Of a DNA stretch of 42,658 nucleotides, positions 3,381 through 9,948 are shown piece after piece. Under the pieces are notes generated by a model, which worked only from the letters and a program-made list of their open reading frames with translations, did not search any database and was not told where the DNA came from. Numbering within the stretch: the stretch's first letter is position 1; each line of letters opens with the position of its first letter. This DNA comes from SAR11 cluster bacterium PRT-SC02 (lineage in GTDB: Bacteria; Pseudomonadota; Alphaproteobacteria; Pelagibacterales; Pelagibacteraceae), in NCBI GenBank assembly GCA_001321855.1, contig JPUP01000053.1, positions 1 through 42,658 on the forward strand. The letters run 5' to 3'. Both the position numbers and the translations under genes were made by a program.

Positions 3381-4718
3381 ATGTTTAAAAAAGTTTTAAT
3401 TGCAAATAGAGGTGAAATTGCAGTTAGAATAATAAGAGCTTGTAAAGAATGGGGTATTGGAACAGTTGCGGTGCACTCGGATGTAGACTCAGACTCAATG
3501 CATGTTAGATTAGCTGACGAAAGTGTTTGTATTGGATCCCATCAGCCTCAAAATAGTTATTTAAATATTTCATCGATTATGTCTGCGGTAGATTTGACTG
3601 GGGCGGAAGCTATTCATCCAGGCTATGGATTTTTATCTGAAAACGCGAAATTTTCAGAAATTGTTAATAAACATGGAATTAAATTTATTGGTCCTAGAGC
3701 TGATATAATCTCAAAAATGGGAGATAAAATAGAAGCAAAAAGAATTGCAAAAAAATATGGCTTACCAATTATAGAGGGATCAGAAGGTGGAGTTAAAAAT
3801 TTTCAGTCTGCAAAATCAATTTGTAAAGAAATTGGTTACCCTGTTTTAATAAAAGCTGCAGGTGGAGGAGGTGGAAAAGGTATGAAAATAGTTGAAGCCG
3901 AGGAAAAATTGGAGGAACTTTTTTTAATAGCAAAAACAGAGGCTAAAAAATTCTTTGGCAATGATGAACTTTATATAGAGAAATATTTTAAAAATCCTAG
4001 ACATATTGAAGTTCAGGTTATGTCTGGAAAGAATAGAACGGTTCACTTAGGTGAAAGAGACTGTTCAGTGCAAAGAAGACATCAAAAATTAATTGAGGAA
4101 ACTCCCAGTCCAGTTTTAACAGAAACTCAAAGAAAAGATCTTTTGGAAAAAACTGTTAAAATGGTTGAACAAATAAATTATGAGGGAGCAGGTACGGTCG
4201 AATTTATTTACGAAAATGGAAAATTTTATTTTTTAGAAATGAACACAAGGGTTCAGGTTGAACATCCGGTAACTGAAGTTCAGACTGGGATTGATATAGT
4301 GAAAGAACAGTTATGGATTGCATACTCTGGGGATACAGCTTTAAAACAAAGCGATATTGATCCTAGGGGACATTCAATAGAGTGTAGAATTAATGCTGAA
4401 AATCCTGCTTTAGATTTTCAGCCAAGTCCAGGAATAATAAGTGTATGTCATCAACCCTCAGGATTTAGAACTAGAGTAGATGGATCAATTTTTCAAGGAT
4501 GTAAAATTACTCCTTATTACGATAGCTTAATTGCAAAAGTTATTTGCAAAGGACGAAATAGAACTGAAGCAATTCAAAGAACTTTGAGATCATTAGATGA
4601 ATTTGTTTTAGAGGGAATAACAACAACAATAGACTTACACAAAAAAATTTTAAATCATAAAAAATTTATTAATTCTGATTTTGATACTAATTGGTTAGGT
4701 AAAGAAAAATTTTATTAG
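3381..4718 (+). CDS. accC: Acetyl-CoA carboxylase, biotin carboxylase subunit
   Basis: An ATP-grasp enzyme that carboxylates the biotin on AccB using bicarbonate. The 445-residue length is normal. It starts MFKKVLIANRGEIAVRIIRA, carries the ATP-binding glycine loop AAGGGGGKGMKIVE, the RDCSVQRRHQKLIEE segment and the active-site motif FLEMNTRVQVEHPVTE. The C-terminal domain contains RGHSIECRINAE and RVDGSIFQG. It is the last gene of the aroQ-accB-accC operon. Its TAG stop overlaps the stop of the convergent DUF2155 gene by 4 bases, with no terminator between them. Confidence 0.98.
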   Translation: MFKKVLIANRGEIAVRIIRACKEWGIGTVAVHSDVDSDSMHVRLADESVCIGSHQPQNSYLNISSIMSAVDLTGAEAIHPGYGFLSENAKFSEIVNKHGIKFIGPRADIISKMGDKIEAKRIAKKYGLPIIEGSEGGVKNFQSAKSICKEIGYPVLIKAAGGGGGKGMKIVEAEEKLEELFLIAKTEAKKFFGNDELYIEKYFKNPRHIEVQVMSGKNRTVHLGERDCSVQRRHQKLIEETPSPVLTETQRKDLLEKTVKMVEQINYEGAGTVEFIYENGKFYFLEMNTRVQVEHPVTEVQTGIDIVKEQLWIAYSGDTALKQSDIDPRGHSIECRINAENPALDFQPSPGIISVCHQPSGFRTRVDGSIFQGCKITPYYDSLIAKVICKGRNRTEAIQRTLRSLDEFVLEGITTTIDLHKKILNHKKFINSDFDTNWLGKEKFY

Positions 4719-5218
4719 CTTTTTAAACATTCTACAAGCCATATATCATATATTGCATGGTCAATAGGATTAAGTGATGGATTTGAAGCAAAAGTCCAAC
4801 CGTTAAAAATAAAAACTTTCTCATTTGCTTTATCTGAATTGTCCTTCACTTGAATGTATGCAACATGATCGGGTAAATTTAATGACTTGGTTTCACCACA
4901 TTTTACAGCTTTTATTTCTAAGATACCCAAATTATATTTTTCACCTAATTTAATTTTTATTTCGTTTGTTTTTGCAGTAATCTTGTCTAGCCCTTTAAGT
5001 TTAACATATGAGAAATTACCCCCTGAATCATTATATAATTTTGTTTTTATTTTTAAATCTGATTTTTTAATTTCGCTTTCTATTTTTTCTTCCTCTTCAA
5101 AACTTGGTTCTAAATTTTCTAAATTTATTAAGGGACTTGTTTTTATTTGTTCTTGAGCCAAAATATTAGGGATCACTAAAAAAAAAATAAAAAGAATTTT
5201 AATTTTTCCAAGTTTCAT
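4715..5218 (-). CDS. DUF2155 domain protein, exported
   Basis: A 167-residue protein with an N-terminal signal peptide (hydrophobic stretch about residues 5-21, IKILFIFFLVIPNILAQE) and an acidic linker. The C-terminal DUF2155 domain is recognised from KCGETKSLNLPDHVAYIQVKD and VFIFNGWTFASNPSLNPIDH, ending in a YDIWLVEC motif. The family is mostly alphaproteobacterial, has no settled function, and is often found beside the NDUFA12-like gene, as here, where the two overlap by 20 bases. A periplasmic location is inferred from the signal peptide. Any link to respiratory complex I is only positional. Confidence 0.85.
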   Translation of the reverse strand: MKLGKIKILFIFFLVIPNILAQEQIKTSPLINLENLEPSFEEEEKIESEIKKSDLKIKTKLYNDSGGNFSYVKLKGLDKITAKTNEIKIKLGEKYNLGILEIKAVKCGETKSLNLPDHVAYIQVKDNSDKANEKVFIFNGWTFASNPSLNPIDHAIYDIWLVECLKS

Positions 5219-5552
5219 ATTTTTTTTTTATTTTTTTTGTTATTTTATTTGGCTTATAAGCTTTTTGAGTTCCTGTAAGATTTTCCTCATGTTTTTTTTG
5301 CCAATTATATTTGACATTATTAATATTTGGAGTTTCGTTTACGGTATGATGCATCCATAAATACCAGTCGGATGGTATTTTAGTTGCCTCTATATTATTA
5401 GAGTATATAACCCATCTTTCATTTTTTTTACTTTTGTAATATTTATTACCATATTCATCTTTTCCGACCAATTTTCCAAAAAATAAAGTTTTTAAAAAAG
5501 TCCCAAAAGTTTGTTTATGCCACCAAGTAAAAATTTGTTTAAGTCCTAACAT
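5199..5552 (-). CDS. NDUFA12-family NADH:ubiquinone oxidoreductase accessory subunit
   Basis: A 117-residue homologue of mitochondrial complex I subunit NDUFA12 (B17.2), an accessory subunit shared with Alphaproteobacteria. Supporting stretches are WWHKQTFGTFLKTLFFGKLVG, DEYGNKYYKSK, RWVIYSNNIEATKIPSDWY and WLWMHHTVNETP-like text (here LWMHHTVNETPN), which match the family core. The core nuo genes are not in the window. It is the first gene of a two-gene unit with DUF2155, overlapping it by 20 bases. The divergent TSCPD gene starts 95 bp away. Confidence 0.9.
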   Translation of the reverse strand: MLGLKQIFTWWHKQTFGTFLKTLFFGKLVGKDEYGNKYYKSKKNERWVIYSNNIEATKIPSDWYLWMHHTVNETPNINNVKYNWQKKHEENLTGTQKAYKPNKITKKIKKKYETWKN

Positions 5553-5565
5553 ACATTAAATCCAC

Positions 5566-5580
5566 ACAATTCAAAATTGT
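5566..5580. repeat. Short inverted repeat upstream of the NDUFA12 gene
   Basis: ACAATTCAAAATTGT is a perfect 6-bp inverted repeat around a 3-base centre, lying 14 bases before the NDUFA12-like start codon in the divergent gap 5553-5647. It could be an operator, but such short palindromes arise by chance in DNA this AT-rich. Confidence 0.25.
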
Positions 5581-5619
5581 ATCATATTTTAAGTAGACAC
5601 CTATAATATTTTATATATA

Positions 5620-5632
5620 TCTTAAATTAAGA
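5620..5632. repeat. Short inverted repeat upstream of the TSCPD gene
   Basis: TCTTAAATTAAGA is a perfect 6-bp inverted repeat around one central base, ending 15 bases before the ATG at 5648. It sits where a repressor could cover the transcription start. No family match is claimed, and chance is a real alternative. Confidence 0.25.
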
Positions 5633-5647
5633 GATTCCAGCAAATTT

Positions 5648-6484
5648 ATGAAAAAATATTTAGTTGAAACATTTTATACGTGTACCTTCAAAACAGTACA
5701 TAAACTAGACGAAATAAACGACCAAAGTTTAAACTCTTTGGACGAGAGAAACGACGGTGATGTTGAGCTAATCGAGGTAAAATTAAATAAACGAAAAACT
5801 AAACGAATTGGTAAAACTTCAACTAAGGAAGTTTCTGGAAGATTGGATGATATAAAATTAGAGAATAATTTAAACCTTAAAGATAAATTAAAAAAAAGTG
5901 AAAAAATATTATCATCAAATCCTTTGGAGTCCCAAAAAAATATAAAACCACAACCTCATTCAAGATTTAAGATGCCTGATAGAAGGAAAGGTTATATTCA
6001 GAAAGCATCCATCGGAGAGCACAAAATTTATCTTCATACAGGCGAATATGATGATGGAAGAATTGGTGAAATATTTATAGATACAAATAAAGAGGGTGAA
6101 CTTGTGAAGGCGCTTATGAATAATTTTGCAATAGCTATTTCATTAGGATTACAATACGGAGTTCCGTTAGAAGAGTTTGTAGATGCATTTATTGATACAA
6201 AGTTTGAACCATCTGGAAAAATAATTGGAAATGATAGAATTTTAAGTGCTACATCAATTTTAGATTACGTATTTAGAGAGTTGGCTATTTCTTATCTTGG
6301 TAAAGAGGAATTAGCTCACACACCATCAATTTCAAATAAATCTGATACAACTCGAAATTCAGAAAATGAAAAGTTCCTCAAAATAGTAAAAAATATTACT
6401 TCAAAAGGCTTTGTTAGAAGCAACTATGAAGAAAAATTAGTTGATTTAAGCGATATAAGGTTAAATTTGAAAACTAAAAATTAG
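5648..6484 (+). CDS. Stand-alone TSCPD-domain protein related to the C-terminus of B12-dependent ribonucleotide reductase
   Basis: A 278-residue protein. Residues about 105-222 closely resemble the C-terminal segment of alphaproteobacterial vitamin B12-dependent ribonucleotide reductase (NrdJ). Key stretches are [37 protein letters not shown], the [20 protein letters not shown] region, and [16 protein letters not shown]. The catalytic barrel and cobalamin-binding parts of NrdJ are absent, so it cannot be the reductase itself. The N-terminus ([17 protein letters not shown], then a Lys/Asn-rich linker) looks like an authentic start, not a broken edge. The frame opens at an ATG with a normal divergent gap upstream. 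Its stop is immediately followed by the convergent aspS stop. Function is unknown; a regulatory or dNTP-related role is only a guess. Confidence 0.75.
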
Positions 6485-8275
6485 TTATTTCTTAAGATTT
6501 ATTTTAATATTTAATTCTTTTAATTGATTTTGATTAACTTCGGAGGGGGCCTCCATTAATAGATCCTGGGCATTTTGTGTCATGGGAAACAAAGTAACCT
6601 CTCTTATATTTTTCTCATTTGCCAACAACATTACTATTCTATCAATACCTGGCGCCATACCACCGTGTGGGGGTGCGCCATAAGAAAGTGCTTTGATCAT
6701 ACCAGAAAATTTCTTATCTACTTCACTCTTTTTATATCCGACTTTTTCAAAAACTTTATACATTAAATTCGGTAAATGATTTCTTATCGCACCAGATGAA
6801 AGTTCATAACCGTTACAAACTAGATCGTATTGATAGGCTAGTATTTTAAGCGGATCAGATTTATCAAAATTTTCTAATTTTACTTGCGGCATTGAAAATG
6901 GATTATGGCTAAAATCTATTTTTTTCGCTTCCTCATCATAGTGATACATTGGGTAGTCAACTATCCAACAAAATTTAAAGTTTTTTTCATCAATTAATTT
7001 ATTTTCTTCAGCTATTTTTTGTCTAGCGATACCTGAAAATTTTTCAGCTTCATTTTTTTTATTACATATAAAAAAAACTGAGTCTTTTTCTGATATATTG
7101 CAAATTTTAATTAATTCTTTTAAAGCGGTTTCGTTAAAAAATTTAGCTATTGGTCCTTTACCAATAATCTTATCTCCTTTTCTTTCAAAAATAATATATG
7201 CCATACCACTAGCACCCTCGCCTATCGCCCAATTATTAAGACTATCAAAAAAACTTCTAGGTTTTGAATGTGTATTAGGAACTGGGATAGCTTTTACAAT
7301 TCCACCTTTGCTTATAGTGTCTTTAAATATTTTTAATGAAACATTTTCAGATCTAAATAAATCAGTTACATTTTTAAGTTTTATTGGGTTTCTTAAATCG
7401 GGTTTGTCAGTTCCATATTCATCAATGGCTTCACTATAAGTTATCCTTGGAAAAGGTATTTGGTTAACTATTTTTCCATTTCCAAATTTTGTAAATAAAT
7501 CATAAAAAATTGGTTCTACCACATTAAATATGTCATTCTGCTCTACAAAAGACATTTCCATATCTAATTGATAATGCTCTCCAGGGCTTCTATCTGCTCT
7601 TCCATCTTCGTCTCTAAAACAAGGTGCAATTTGAAAATATTTATCGAACCCCGAAATCATTATTATTTGTTTAAATTGTTGAGGTGCTTGAGGCAGAGCG
7701 TAAAATTTTCCTGGATGCACTCTACTTGGTACTAAAAAATCTCTTGCGCCCTCAGGACTCGAAGCTGTTAAAATGGGTGTTTGGAATTCTAAGAAACCAT
7801 TTGCAATCATTTTATTTCTTAAGAAAGTAATGACTTTTGATCGTAATATTATATTATTGTGAATCGTCTCTCTCCTCAAATCTAAAAATTTGTATTTTAA
7901 TCTTATTTCTTCTGGATAGTTTTGTTCACCAAAAACTGGCATTGGTAAATCTTTAGCCTCTGATAAAACGCTAACCTCATCAATTTTTACCTCGATACTT
8001 CCTGTTTTTAATTCAAGGTTTTCTGTTTCTTTATCTCTAGGTGTTACAGTACCACTAATTGTAATGACTGTTTCTGGCTTTAACTTTTCAACAAGTTTGA
8101 AATTTTTATTTTTGTTTTCAATTACACATTGAGTTATTCCATAATGATCTCTTAAATCAATGAAAACTAAATTACCGTGATCTCTTTTTCTATGCAACCA
8201 TCCTGATAATTTTACTTTTTCTAACTTATTTTTGAGATTTAATTCTGAGCAGTTGTGAGTTTTATATATGTTCAT
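6485..8275 (-). CDS. aspS: Aspartyl-tRNA synthetase, probably non-discriminating
   Basis: A class II aminoacyl-tRNA synthetase of 596 residues, the usual bacterial length with the GAD insertion. The N-terminal anticodon-binding OB fold contains [19 protein letters not shown]. The catalytic core has [24 protein letters not shown]-loop-like [30 protein letters not shown] (motif 2), and a C-terminal motif 3 ending [15 protein letters not shown]33 in the RDHG turn corresponds to the histidine found in non-discriminating AspRS, where E. coli has Leu; this suggests it also charges tRNA-Asn for GatCAB. It overlaps the 3' end of hda by 14 bases and is the last gene of DUF2066-hda-aspS. Confidence 0.97.
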
Positions 8276-8924
8276 TTTTTAAAACTTTTTTTACCAATTT
8301 TATAGAAATAGATTTACCACTTATCAATGATTCTTTATCAATTTCTTTAATAAATTTAAATACATTATAATAAGAACGATCTATATTTTTAATTATATAT
8401 TCTAAAATTTTACTGTCTATTTGAATTTGATTGTCAGAAAAGTACTTAGTTATTATAACTTTTAATAAATCATCAGTAGGTAAGGAGATACCTAGGCTCA
8501 AAAAACTCTTAAAACGTGATTTTAAATCTACTAGTTTTATATTAAATCTTTGTAAAGGTTTTGTTGATATAATCATTAAATAAATATCTTGTTGGATACA
8601 TGTGTTTATAAATGAATATAATATTTCATCTTTGATGTTATTTTCATAATTATCAATTATTATGCATTCTAATTCATTAATATTTTTTTCAAGAATTTTT
8701 TCTATAGTTTCGGCATTTATAATTATTGAATTAATTTTTGTTTTTAAAATTTGGGATAAATAAGTTTTTCCAGAACCTGAGGGGCCGTATATATTTAAAA
8801 ACTTATTTGGCCATTTTGGCCAACTTTCTATAAGTTTGTAAGCTTCAAAATTATTCGATGAGACATAAAAGTCTTTCTTCTCATAAACGGTTTTAAATGG
8901 AAACTGAAATGTCAATTGATTCAT
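8262..8924 (-). CDS. hda: DnaA-family ATPase, Hda/HdaA-like replication regulator
   Basis: A 220-residue AAA+ protein resembling DnaA without its DNA-binding domain IV. Hda-type proteins promote DnaA-ATP hydrolysis with the sliding clamp to prevent re-initiation. The N-terminus [10 protein letters not shown] resembles the clamp-binding leader. The Walker A motif is [12 protein letters not shown] and the Walker B region IIIDNYEN; a sensor-like [20 protein letters not shown] stretch follows. A TTG codon lies five codons upstream in frame, but the ATG at 8924 gives the canonical start. The gene sits between a DUF2066 gene and aspS, and DUF2066-hda adjacency is typical in Alphaproteobacteria. The usual neighbour ppk is absent. 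Confidence 0.85.
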
Positions 8925-8925
8925 T

Positions 8926-9948
8926 TTAAGTAAGCTCAATTAACCAAGAATTATTAATATTTTTTATACTTAATCCCTTCTCCTCTAGGACCTTTATAAT
9001 TTTATCTATTCTACCGTAATACTTTATTTTTAGTTTTACTTCTTTGTTAATTATTTCTTCCACTGAGAAATATTCTATCAAATCAATTTGATCTAAAATC
9101 TTCTGAACGTTCATCAGGTTGTTCAAGTTATTTATTTTTAATTTGGAGTTAAAAAAAGCGGGGGTACTAAGATCTATTAAATTCTGAGATTTTGAAATTT
9201 CTAAAATTTTATTTTTAATTTCTATGATTACTTTATTTTTAGTTACTAAATTATTTTGATTACGCTTATTTATTGAAAAATTATAATTAACTTTTTTATT
9301 TGAAACAATAGATTTAATAAAAACTTTAAATTCATTTTCTCTCTCAAAAATTAATATTAAAGCTGAATTTTTTAAGTCATAATCTTTAAGCACCTCCTCT
9401 AACTTTAAATCCTCTAAATTATCTTTGTAATTTTTTATTAATCTAATATTTTCAATATTTTCAATGGGCATCACATATTGCAATACTTCGCTATTATTTT
9501 GATTATTTAGGACCCAATTATCATAAAAAAAATTTTTATTATATATATAGATATCATCTTTAATCTGATGCACCGGCATTATAACAAAATCAAGATTAAA
9601 AAGATCACTGTAAGATACATTTTTTTTAAGAAAAAATTCATTTATTTTTTTTTTATCAAAAAATAAATTAAGTGTGGCAACATCTTTATTATTTTCTTTT
9701 TTATTTACTATTTGATAGTGTGAAATCAAATTTTTGATTTGATTACTATTAATTTTTGACACTATTCTTGAGTCTTCCTCTAAAAGCACTCGCTGTGAAA
9801 ACTTTTCGAAGGCTTTTTTAAAGCTATTTTCCAAGGTTTGTGTGTCATTTTTCTCAATTTTGATATTATTAACATTAAAGATGCTTTCGCTTGATAAAAC
9901 ATTTCCACAAAGCAAAATTAGTATTATTATATACAAATAAATTTTCAT
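8926..9948 (-). CDS. DUF2066 domain protein, exported
   Basis: A 340-residue protein with a clear signal peptide: hydrophobic residues about 3-18, then LSSES. The N-terminal portion (NIKIEKNDTQTLENSFKKAFEKFSQRVL) matches the start of DUF2066 proteins, which are periplasmic or envelope-associated and of unknown role. The rest is very Lys/Asn/Ile-rich and poorly conserved, so the assignment leans on this motif and on the position before hda and divergent from purM. Its stop lies 1 base before the hda ATG. Only 25 bp separate its start from purM. Confidence 0.75.
   Translation of the reverse strand: MKIYLYIIILILLCGNVLSSESIFNVNNIKIEKNDTQTLENSFKKAFEKFSQRVLLEEDSRIVSKINSNQIKNLISHYQIVNKKENNKDVATLNLFFDKKKINEFFLKKNVSYSDLFNLDFVIMPVHQIKDDIYIYNKNFFYDNWVLNNQNNSEVLQYVMPIENIENIRLIKNYKDNLEDLKLEEVLKDYDLKNSALILIFERENEFKVFIKSIVSNKKVNYNFSINKRNQNNLVTKNKVIIEIKNKILEISKSQNLIDLSTPAFFNSKLKINNLNNLMNVQKILDQIDLIEYFSVEEIINKEVKLKIKYYGRIDKIIKVLEEKGLSIKNINNSWLIELT

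Follow-up and report, generated by a model that had tools for sequence, protein, structure and literature searches.

Gene organisation of the locus

The window (the whole stretch of DNA analysed, 42,658 nucleotides) comes from a SAR11 bacterium of the family Pelagibacteraceae. It carries an open reading frame of 278 amino acids with an ATG start, which diverges from a homologue of NDUFA12 across 95 nt and converges with aspS (Table 1). The extent of the frame, its start and the divergent arrangement are those of the original prediction. The NDUFA12 homologue scores above the Pfam cut-off and below the NCBIfam cut-off. A conserved element, ATCCACACAATT at 5560-5571 followed by AATTGTAT at 5575-5582, lies between NDUFA12 and the tail gene. 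Its ATCCACA core is conserved in 77 of 83 SAR11 upstream regions and resembles a DnaA box. An inverted repeat, ACAATT/AATTGT, is present within this non-coding SAR11 element (5560-5582).

Table 1. Features of the tail gene and its neighbours in the window, and viral loci with separate tail genes
Feature	Position or locus	Strand	Remarks
accC	3381-4718	+	
DUF2155	4715-5218	-	
NDUFA12 homologue, divergent neighbour	5199-5552	-	landmark of the ancestral nrdJ locus
Divergent promoter space, common to the tail gene and NDUFA12	5553-5647	.	conserved element inside
Stand-alone NrdJ-tail gene, 278 aa	5648-6484	+	ATG start, stop included; occurs across SAR11
N-terminal domain, residues 1-55	5648-5812	+	SAR11-specific; predicted two long strands and a short helix
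Lys-rich variable linker, residues 56-103	5813-5956	+	low-confidence prediction; probably disordered
TSCPD/IscU-like domain, residues 104-228	5957-6331	+	NrdJ-tail homologue; no Cys
C-terminal segment, residues 242-278	6371-6481	+	remnant of the NrdJ post-domain stretch
aspS, convergent neighbour	6485-8275	-	locus landmark
HdaA-like gene	8262-8939	-	passes no cut-off
Viral DnaB-group loci	L303, L306-L308, L310-L316, L322, L324, L326, L337, L341		wider flanks L383, L387-L390, L396, L409, L413
Other short tail-only viral genes, 129-170 aa	L346, L354, L357, L362, L364, L369, L370		no Cys-rich end

The protein combines the NrdJ tail with a SAR11-specific N-terminal domain

Pfam detected TSCPD alone in the 278-residue protein (PF12637, residues 118-213, E 2.4e-12, 47.4 bits against a cut-off of 22.8); the catalytic barrel of class II NrdJ, PF02867, was not matched. 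Residues 97-266 align with positions 960-1132 of the 1222 positions in the NCBIfam model of NrdJ, PRK07562 (E 1.7e-66). The score of 224.7 bits is far under the cut-off of 1737, and the protein is therefore not called NrdJ. The window protein retains 57 of the 62 tail residues that are invariant among 24 intact alphaproteobacterial NrdJ proteins, in which the tail is more conserved (mean identity 0.84, lowest 0.77) than the body (0.68). TIGR03905 was not among the NCBIfam matches at E up to 1, and a PDB sequence search with the window protein matched no structure. The original description of a TSCPD protein corresponding to the NrdJ tail, lacking the catalytic part and bearing an N-terminal region of its own, thus stands.

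The best NCBIfam match of the frame carries the name 'vitamin B12-dependent ribonucleotide reductase', far under its cut-off, and there is a risk of misnaming in SAR11 genomes. Naming by this match would wrongly imply that an ocean lineage of very high abundance needs B12 to make DNA.

The N-terminal 55 residues gave no match to intact NrdJ, and this domain was found only in Pelagibacteraceae (5 of 385 genomes sampled across the class). The C-terminal 37 residues resemble the stretch that follows the domain in intact NrdJ (hhalign E 4.5e-5). NrdJ closes with a Cys-rich zinc finger, which is present in proteins of the sister family and missing from the SAR11 protein. The only cysteine of the window protein is C12, outside the TSCPD domain and invariant across 44 aligned SAR11 proteins.

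Structure prediction from SAR11 sequences only was unusable (mean pLDDT 41.7). When viral tails were added, residues 111-220 formed a block with pLDDT 86-95; the N-terminal part reached 46-75 and the remainder was low, so that neither the N- nor the C-terminal part is confident. Foldseek with the predicted model gave no match at E <=0.001. IscU/SufU chains lead the fold list with Z scores of 4.7-2.9, none reaching 5, and are tied with lipoate ligase, PURA and other domains. This weak match of a predicted model agrees with the IscU-like fold predicted for the C-terminal domain of long class II ribonucleotide reductases (RNRs), the role of which was stated to be unreported (PMC9669993).

Distribution and maintenance in SAR11

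From a species-genome collection the best 80 of 188 relatives were kept, giving a comparison set of 81 genomes with the window's own. All of these 80 are Pelagibacteraceae, Pelagibacterales or Pelagibacter records, the closest being 95% identical. Counting the window's own genome, 41 of the 49 genus genomes encode the full-length protein with its N-terminal region, a distribution that places the frame far beyond chance. The eight genus genomes without it are all incomplete (60-86%); it is present in all four that are >=90% complete, and in all eight SAR11 genomes of that completeness. When loci were read directly, 28 of 30 stand-alone proteins were recovered.

The frame is open in 80 of 80 SAR11 copies (268-322 codons; the ORF caller placed the start at an upstream Met in 16 of them). 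Among SAR11 pairs with dS between 0.1 and 1, the median dN/dS was 0.010 for the TSCPD domain (38 pairs), 0.129 for the N-terminal part (131 pairs) and 0.048 for the C-terminal part (188 pairs). The two linkers gave values of about 1.1 from an alignment that is unreliable there. The SAR11 tail protein is thus maintained under strong purifying selection, as had been supposed from the conservation of the matched segment.

The SAR11 lineage uses class I NrdAB. The complete genomes of two sister Pelagibacteraceae genera have both the stand-alone protein and NrdB in 4 of 4 cases, and their sole large-subunit match is an NrdA of about 650 residues adjoining NrdB. Within the genus, PF02867 was found in 36 of 49 genomes, in frames of 246-672 residues, none of NrdJ length. 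The 13 genomes with no match are all incomplete and include the window's own (about 60% complete), in which the search for NrdB likewise gave no match. NrdB was found in 37 of the 49 SAR11-genus genomes, against none of 32 genomes from the sister family of the same order. All 32 of the latter have a tail match, 30 of them in frames of 1180-1218 residues, which are full-length NrdJ, and two in short frames. As far as these data go, the host has no NrdJ, the circumstance under which the gene had been proposed to be a repurposed module.

The gene is nrdJ reduced in place

The sister family has full-length nrdJ between a divergent NDUFA12 and a convergent aspS in four of six loci read; the remaining two end at a contig edge on one side, and the other side agrees. 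At three loci (L280, L296 and L297) the antisense strand of nrdJ contains open frames exceeding 1300 codons, which were taken as coding-bias artefacts. The stand-alone gene occupies the same NDUFA12/aspS slot in 6 of 6 SAR11 loci from three genera. The order accC, DUF2155, NDUFA12, tail gene, aspS, hda was complete in 72 of 80 further SAR11 loci, and one or two marker genes were missing from the other eight. Since full-length nrdJ occupies this slot in the sister family, the SAR11 gene represents the ancestral nrdJ of Alphaproteobacteria after reduction in place. It has lost the catalytic body and the Cys-rich zinc finger, in a lineage with NrdAB, and has retained the IscU-like (TSCPD) domain with a short following stretch, now fused to a new N-terminal domain.

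The original prediction set its reading against that of a gene that is just split or deleted. In one respect this is what was found: in the sister family a single gene at this locus includes the reductase body, so the SAR11 gene is a deleted nrdJ. Very strong selection and the recurrence in other families described below nevertheless make it a maintained module.

A clean tree built on the 119-residue domain was poorly resolved. It neither recovered nor rejected a pairing of SAR11 with the sister family (p-AU 0.304), and a grouping of SAR11 with f10, a family with a stand-alone tail of its own, was likewise unrecovered and not rejected (p-AU 0.121). A single clade of all eroded forms (p-AU 0.033) and one of eroded plus stand-alone forms (p-AU 0.0425) were weakly rejected. 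A first tree that joined SAR11 to the sister family at 91/95 was discarded, as rows G464, L282, L290 and probably G180 had been cut at the wrong motif; the clean tree is without this pairing. Given the poor resolution, it is taxonomy and synteny that speak for an independent origin of the SAR11 and f10 genes: nrdJ is intact in the sister family, which belongs to the same order as SAR11, and f10 shares no rank below the class with SAR11.

Erosion or loss of the catalytic body recurs in other Alphaproteobacteria

Across a class-wide sample of 385 genomes, 248 gave a tail match; 80 of the 85 unlisted tail-positive genomes were re-queried (all except G428, G431, G435, G437 and G439). Twelve short-frame loci were inspected. 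Two proved to be intact NrdJ cut by contig ends (G395 and G462) and were dropped, leaving ten eroded NrdJ from seven families. Other short frames (e.g. G179, G280, G307, G325, G370, G450 and G454) lie outside the inspected set, so the count of eroded forms is at least ten.

The ten retain 37-61 of the 62 invariant tail residues and 32-132 of 307 in the body. The Cys of the NPCSE motif, which we take to be the radical cysteine of NrdJ, is lost in all ten. From the loss of this residue and of the body invariants, the ten proteins are apparently catalytically dead. Six of them have mean identities to intact NrdJ of 0.79-0.84 in the tail, near the values among intact enzymes themselves, and of 0.21-0.36 in the body. 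The other four (three from f28, one from f101) have tail identities of only 0.45-0.54 and keep 37-44 of the 62 residues, indicating that their tails have drifted too. NrdB and NrdA are present in all ten genomes. Two of these genomes (G358, locus L236, and G263, locus L237) have, besides NrdA, an extra gene of another kind that resembles RNR large subunits (PF02867, E 1e-119 or better).

The stand-alone tail of f10 was found in three genomes, as two complete ORFs of 278 residues and one that is cut. The zinc finger is kept in both complete copies, and the SAR11 N-terminal domain is missing from all three. All three genomes have NrdB, which makes NrdB present in 13 of 13 together with the eroded forms. 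Loci cut by contig ends are G356 and, in f10, G402. With wide flanks (a set that does not include G414), NDUFA12 is divergent from the gene in 11 of 12 eroded or f10 loci, the exception being G298. This adjacency indicates that ancestral nrdJ decays in its slot and that the tail is the part kept. In eight other alphaproteobacterial families, therefore, the body or its catalytic residues have been lost, the IscU-like domain has been kept, and NrdB is present.

The tail is not kept everywhere. No tail match at E up to 0.001 was found in 83 of 184 NrdB-positive class genomes, which include relatives of tail-keepers (G143, of the same genus as G358; G222, of f10; and G336, of f28). Its function is thus dispensable in some lineages.

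Viral genes encoding the tail alone

No close relative was confirmed when viral contigs were searched with the single full SAR11 protein. A protein search gave seven phage records covering 41-49% of the protein; four carry a class II or B12-dependent reductase annotation, and for the other three an annotation is either absent or not named. When a diverse tail alignment served as the query, 80 of 302 viral loci were kept, and in 23 of these 80 the tail is a short separate ORF. Searches of the whole records found no reductase body in 22 of the 23, including 11 of the 12 records of at least 15 kb, though each of these records could be fragmentary. In the exception (L346/L418), a separate NrdJ body gene adjoins the tail gene.

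Sixteen of these loci (13 distinct at 98% identity) form one related group in which DnaB lies directly upstream in every case. A small HTH gene and then SSB follow downstream in 13 of the 16, and the other three end within about 400 nt of the match. The tail genes of this group retain the Cys-rich end, and their records hold no RNR body; they may work in trans with a NrdJ of the host. At the seven other tail-only loci, no such DnaB or SSB was found within the flanks read. At one of them, L364, a dCMP deaminase gene lies two genes away and a YspA-like SLOG gene is nearby.

Function of the retained tail

As the body or its catalytic residues have been lost and the domain nevertheless kept in SAR11 and in eight other families, we infer that the IscU-like tail functions independently of ribonucleotide reduction. 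No such function was found among the matches listed in the open-licence literature searched. We consider it probable, as an explanation of the whole, that nrdJ was reduced in place and that its tail has been maintained with a function separate from ribonucleotide reduction. That a slowly decaying, non-functional relic lies at the locus is scarcely credible: the gene is the product of an nrdJ deletion and the tail is missing in some lineages, but this reading is contradicted by the dN/dS of the domain and by the open frame in every copy. The same very low probability attaches to a split class II reductase in which the protein would be the NrdJb-like partner of an NrdJa encoded elsewhere. Free-standing NrdJb exists in Pseudomonas (PMC4520616), and viral record L346 has a separate body beside its tail gene; the reading is contradicted, however, by the four complete SAR11 genomes, in which the NrdA next to NrdB is the sole large-subunit match, and the Cys-rich, electron-shuttling end is absent. 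A role in iron-sulphur or complex I assembly is improbable. It would fit the frequency of IscU/SufU chains in the fold list and the NDUFA12 neighbour kept at nearly all eroded or f10 loci. That adjacency, however, is the ancestral nrdJ slot and is also found with intact nrdJ, and the IscU cluster ligands are absent, since the only cysteine lies outside the domain.

The mechanism that we favour, tentatively, as the most likely one is an adaptor that links deoxynucleotide supply to replication; the replication genes around the tail in one phage group and the nucleotide genes at one further viral locus favour it. A metal-free adaptor that binds proteins or senses nucleotides would couple deoxynucleotide supply to DNA replication. 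It would formerly have tied NrdJ to a partner and would now, as a non-enzyme, remain in touch with this partner or with NrdAB. Somewhat more doubtful is the broader proposal that the tail is a bifunctional module whose RNR-independent, replication-linking role outlived the enzyme, is seen at its purest in SAR11 and was adopted by phage replication cassettes. Several observations weigh against the adaptor. Many NrdB-positive genomes do without the tail; the DnaB phages form a single clade, retain the Cys-rich end and may simply be assisting a host NrdJ, and the seven other viral loci have no such neighbours; the clean domain tree does not place SAR11 with the sister family, nor does it reject that placement; and neither NrdA nor NrdB was found in the genome of the window, which is 60% complete. 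The tests of NrdAB control described next also count against it.

A freed tail could instead act in trans as a subunit of class I NrdAB, binding NrdA or NrdB and standing in for a missing ATP-cone in the control of activity or oligomer state, a reading that we regard as unlikely. Outside the genus, each of the 17 genomes checked (ten with eroded NrdJ, three of f10 and four of SAR11) has NrdB, and all 14 of those searched for NrdA have it too; this co-occurrence is weak evidence, because every cell needs some RNR. The ATP-cone is absent from all six NrdA proteins scanned (two from SAR11 and four from genomes with eroded NrdJ), and the Cys-rich tail of NrdJ has been tied to dATP/dGTP-driven oligomers (PMC5704485). 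Cones were then compared in 63 of the 83 tail-less NrdB genomes, twenty being left out, ten of them for low completeness. Only NrdR-sized cones were found in 17 of 17 tail-keepers and in 47 of the 63 tail-less genomes, of which nine gave no cone match and seven had a cone in an RNR-sized frame. The cone-less state of the tail-keepers is thus common to 56 of 63 tail-less genomes, and tail and cone do not replace each other. Upstream regions were also scanned with a pattern that we assumed for the NrdR box. No NrdR-like site with <=3 mismatches was found in 80 SAR11 upstream regions, whereas three of four SAR11 nrdA loci have a 3-mismatch site adjoining nrdA. At <=5 mismatches, 41 of 80 regions matched, against 157 of 400 single-base shuffles. 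The cone and NrdR-site tests therefore give no support for a link to NrdAB control, and the dNTP- or RNR-related regulator of the original prediction is no more than a candidate. Less likely again is a nucleic-acid or replisome binder with no remaining RNR link. The position between DnaB and SSB in one phage group, the Lys-rich linker and basic motifs of the sequence (PDRRKGY and another of 11 residues) and the presence of PURA, which binds nucleic acid, among the tied fold matches all point in this direction; but the fold matches are weak and tied with unrelated folds, and the phage synteny comes from a single related group.

The retention of the tail suggests that it has an important job of its own in ocean SAR11. 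Lineages with dead catalysis and a surviving domain are in effect a separation-of-function experiment made by nature; they point to a role of the domain beyond aiding turnover of the enzyme. A Caulobacter control genome gave both a TSCPD and an NrdB match, and the question is testable there.

Comparison with known systems

Small stand-alone TSCPD proteins of the TIGR03905 type have about 85 residues and four cysteines. The SAR11 protein is also a stand-alone TSCPD protein, but differs from them in its 278 amino acids and in a domain without Cys. IscU and SufU have three Cys cluster ligands, and the domain offers none. Among the matches listed, the open-licence literature gave no description of a stand-alone or dead alphaproteobacterial NrdJ tail.

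To the IscU-like domain of NrdJ (PMC9669993) the protein is homologous over residues ~97-266, with a weak match in fold class. It differs from NrdJ in being encoded by its own gene, in its additional SAR11-only N-terminal domain, and in lacking the catalytic body and the zinc finger. The Cys-rich tail of NrdJ has also been linked to a possible third nucleotide site (PMC5704485). NrdJb of Pseudomonas aeruginosa is the free-standing tail of a split class II RNR and acts with NrdJa (PMC4520616); the SAR11 protein resembles it as a free-standing NrdJ tail. NrdJb has a redox-active Cys-rich end and its NrdJa partner, neither of which was found for the SAR11 protein: the four complete relatives have only NrdA adjoining NrdB (the window's own genome being incomplete), and the single cysteine, C12, provides no C-terminal zinc finger with a redox pair. 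Because there is no NrdJ beside it and no redox Cys pair, the jobs published for NrdJ tails are not those of the SAR11 protein. Close parallels come from the eroded NrdJ of other Alphaproteobacteria, which have the same domain, lost catalytic residues and NrdAB in the genome, and lie in the NDUFA12 slot in 8 of 9 cases (wide flanks). Unlike the SAR11 gene, they retain an eroded body of several hundred residues, and zinc-finger cysteines are kept in 4 of 10.
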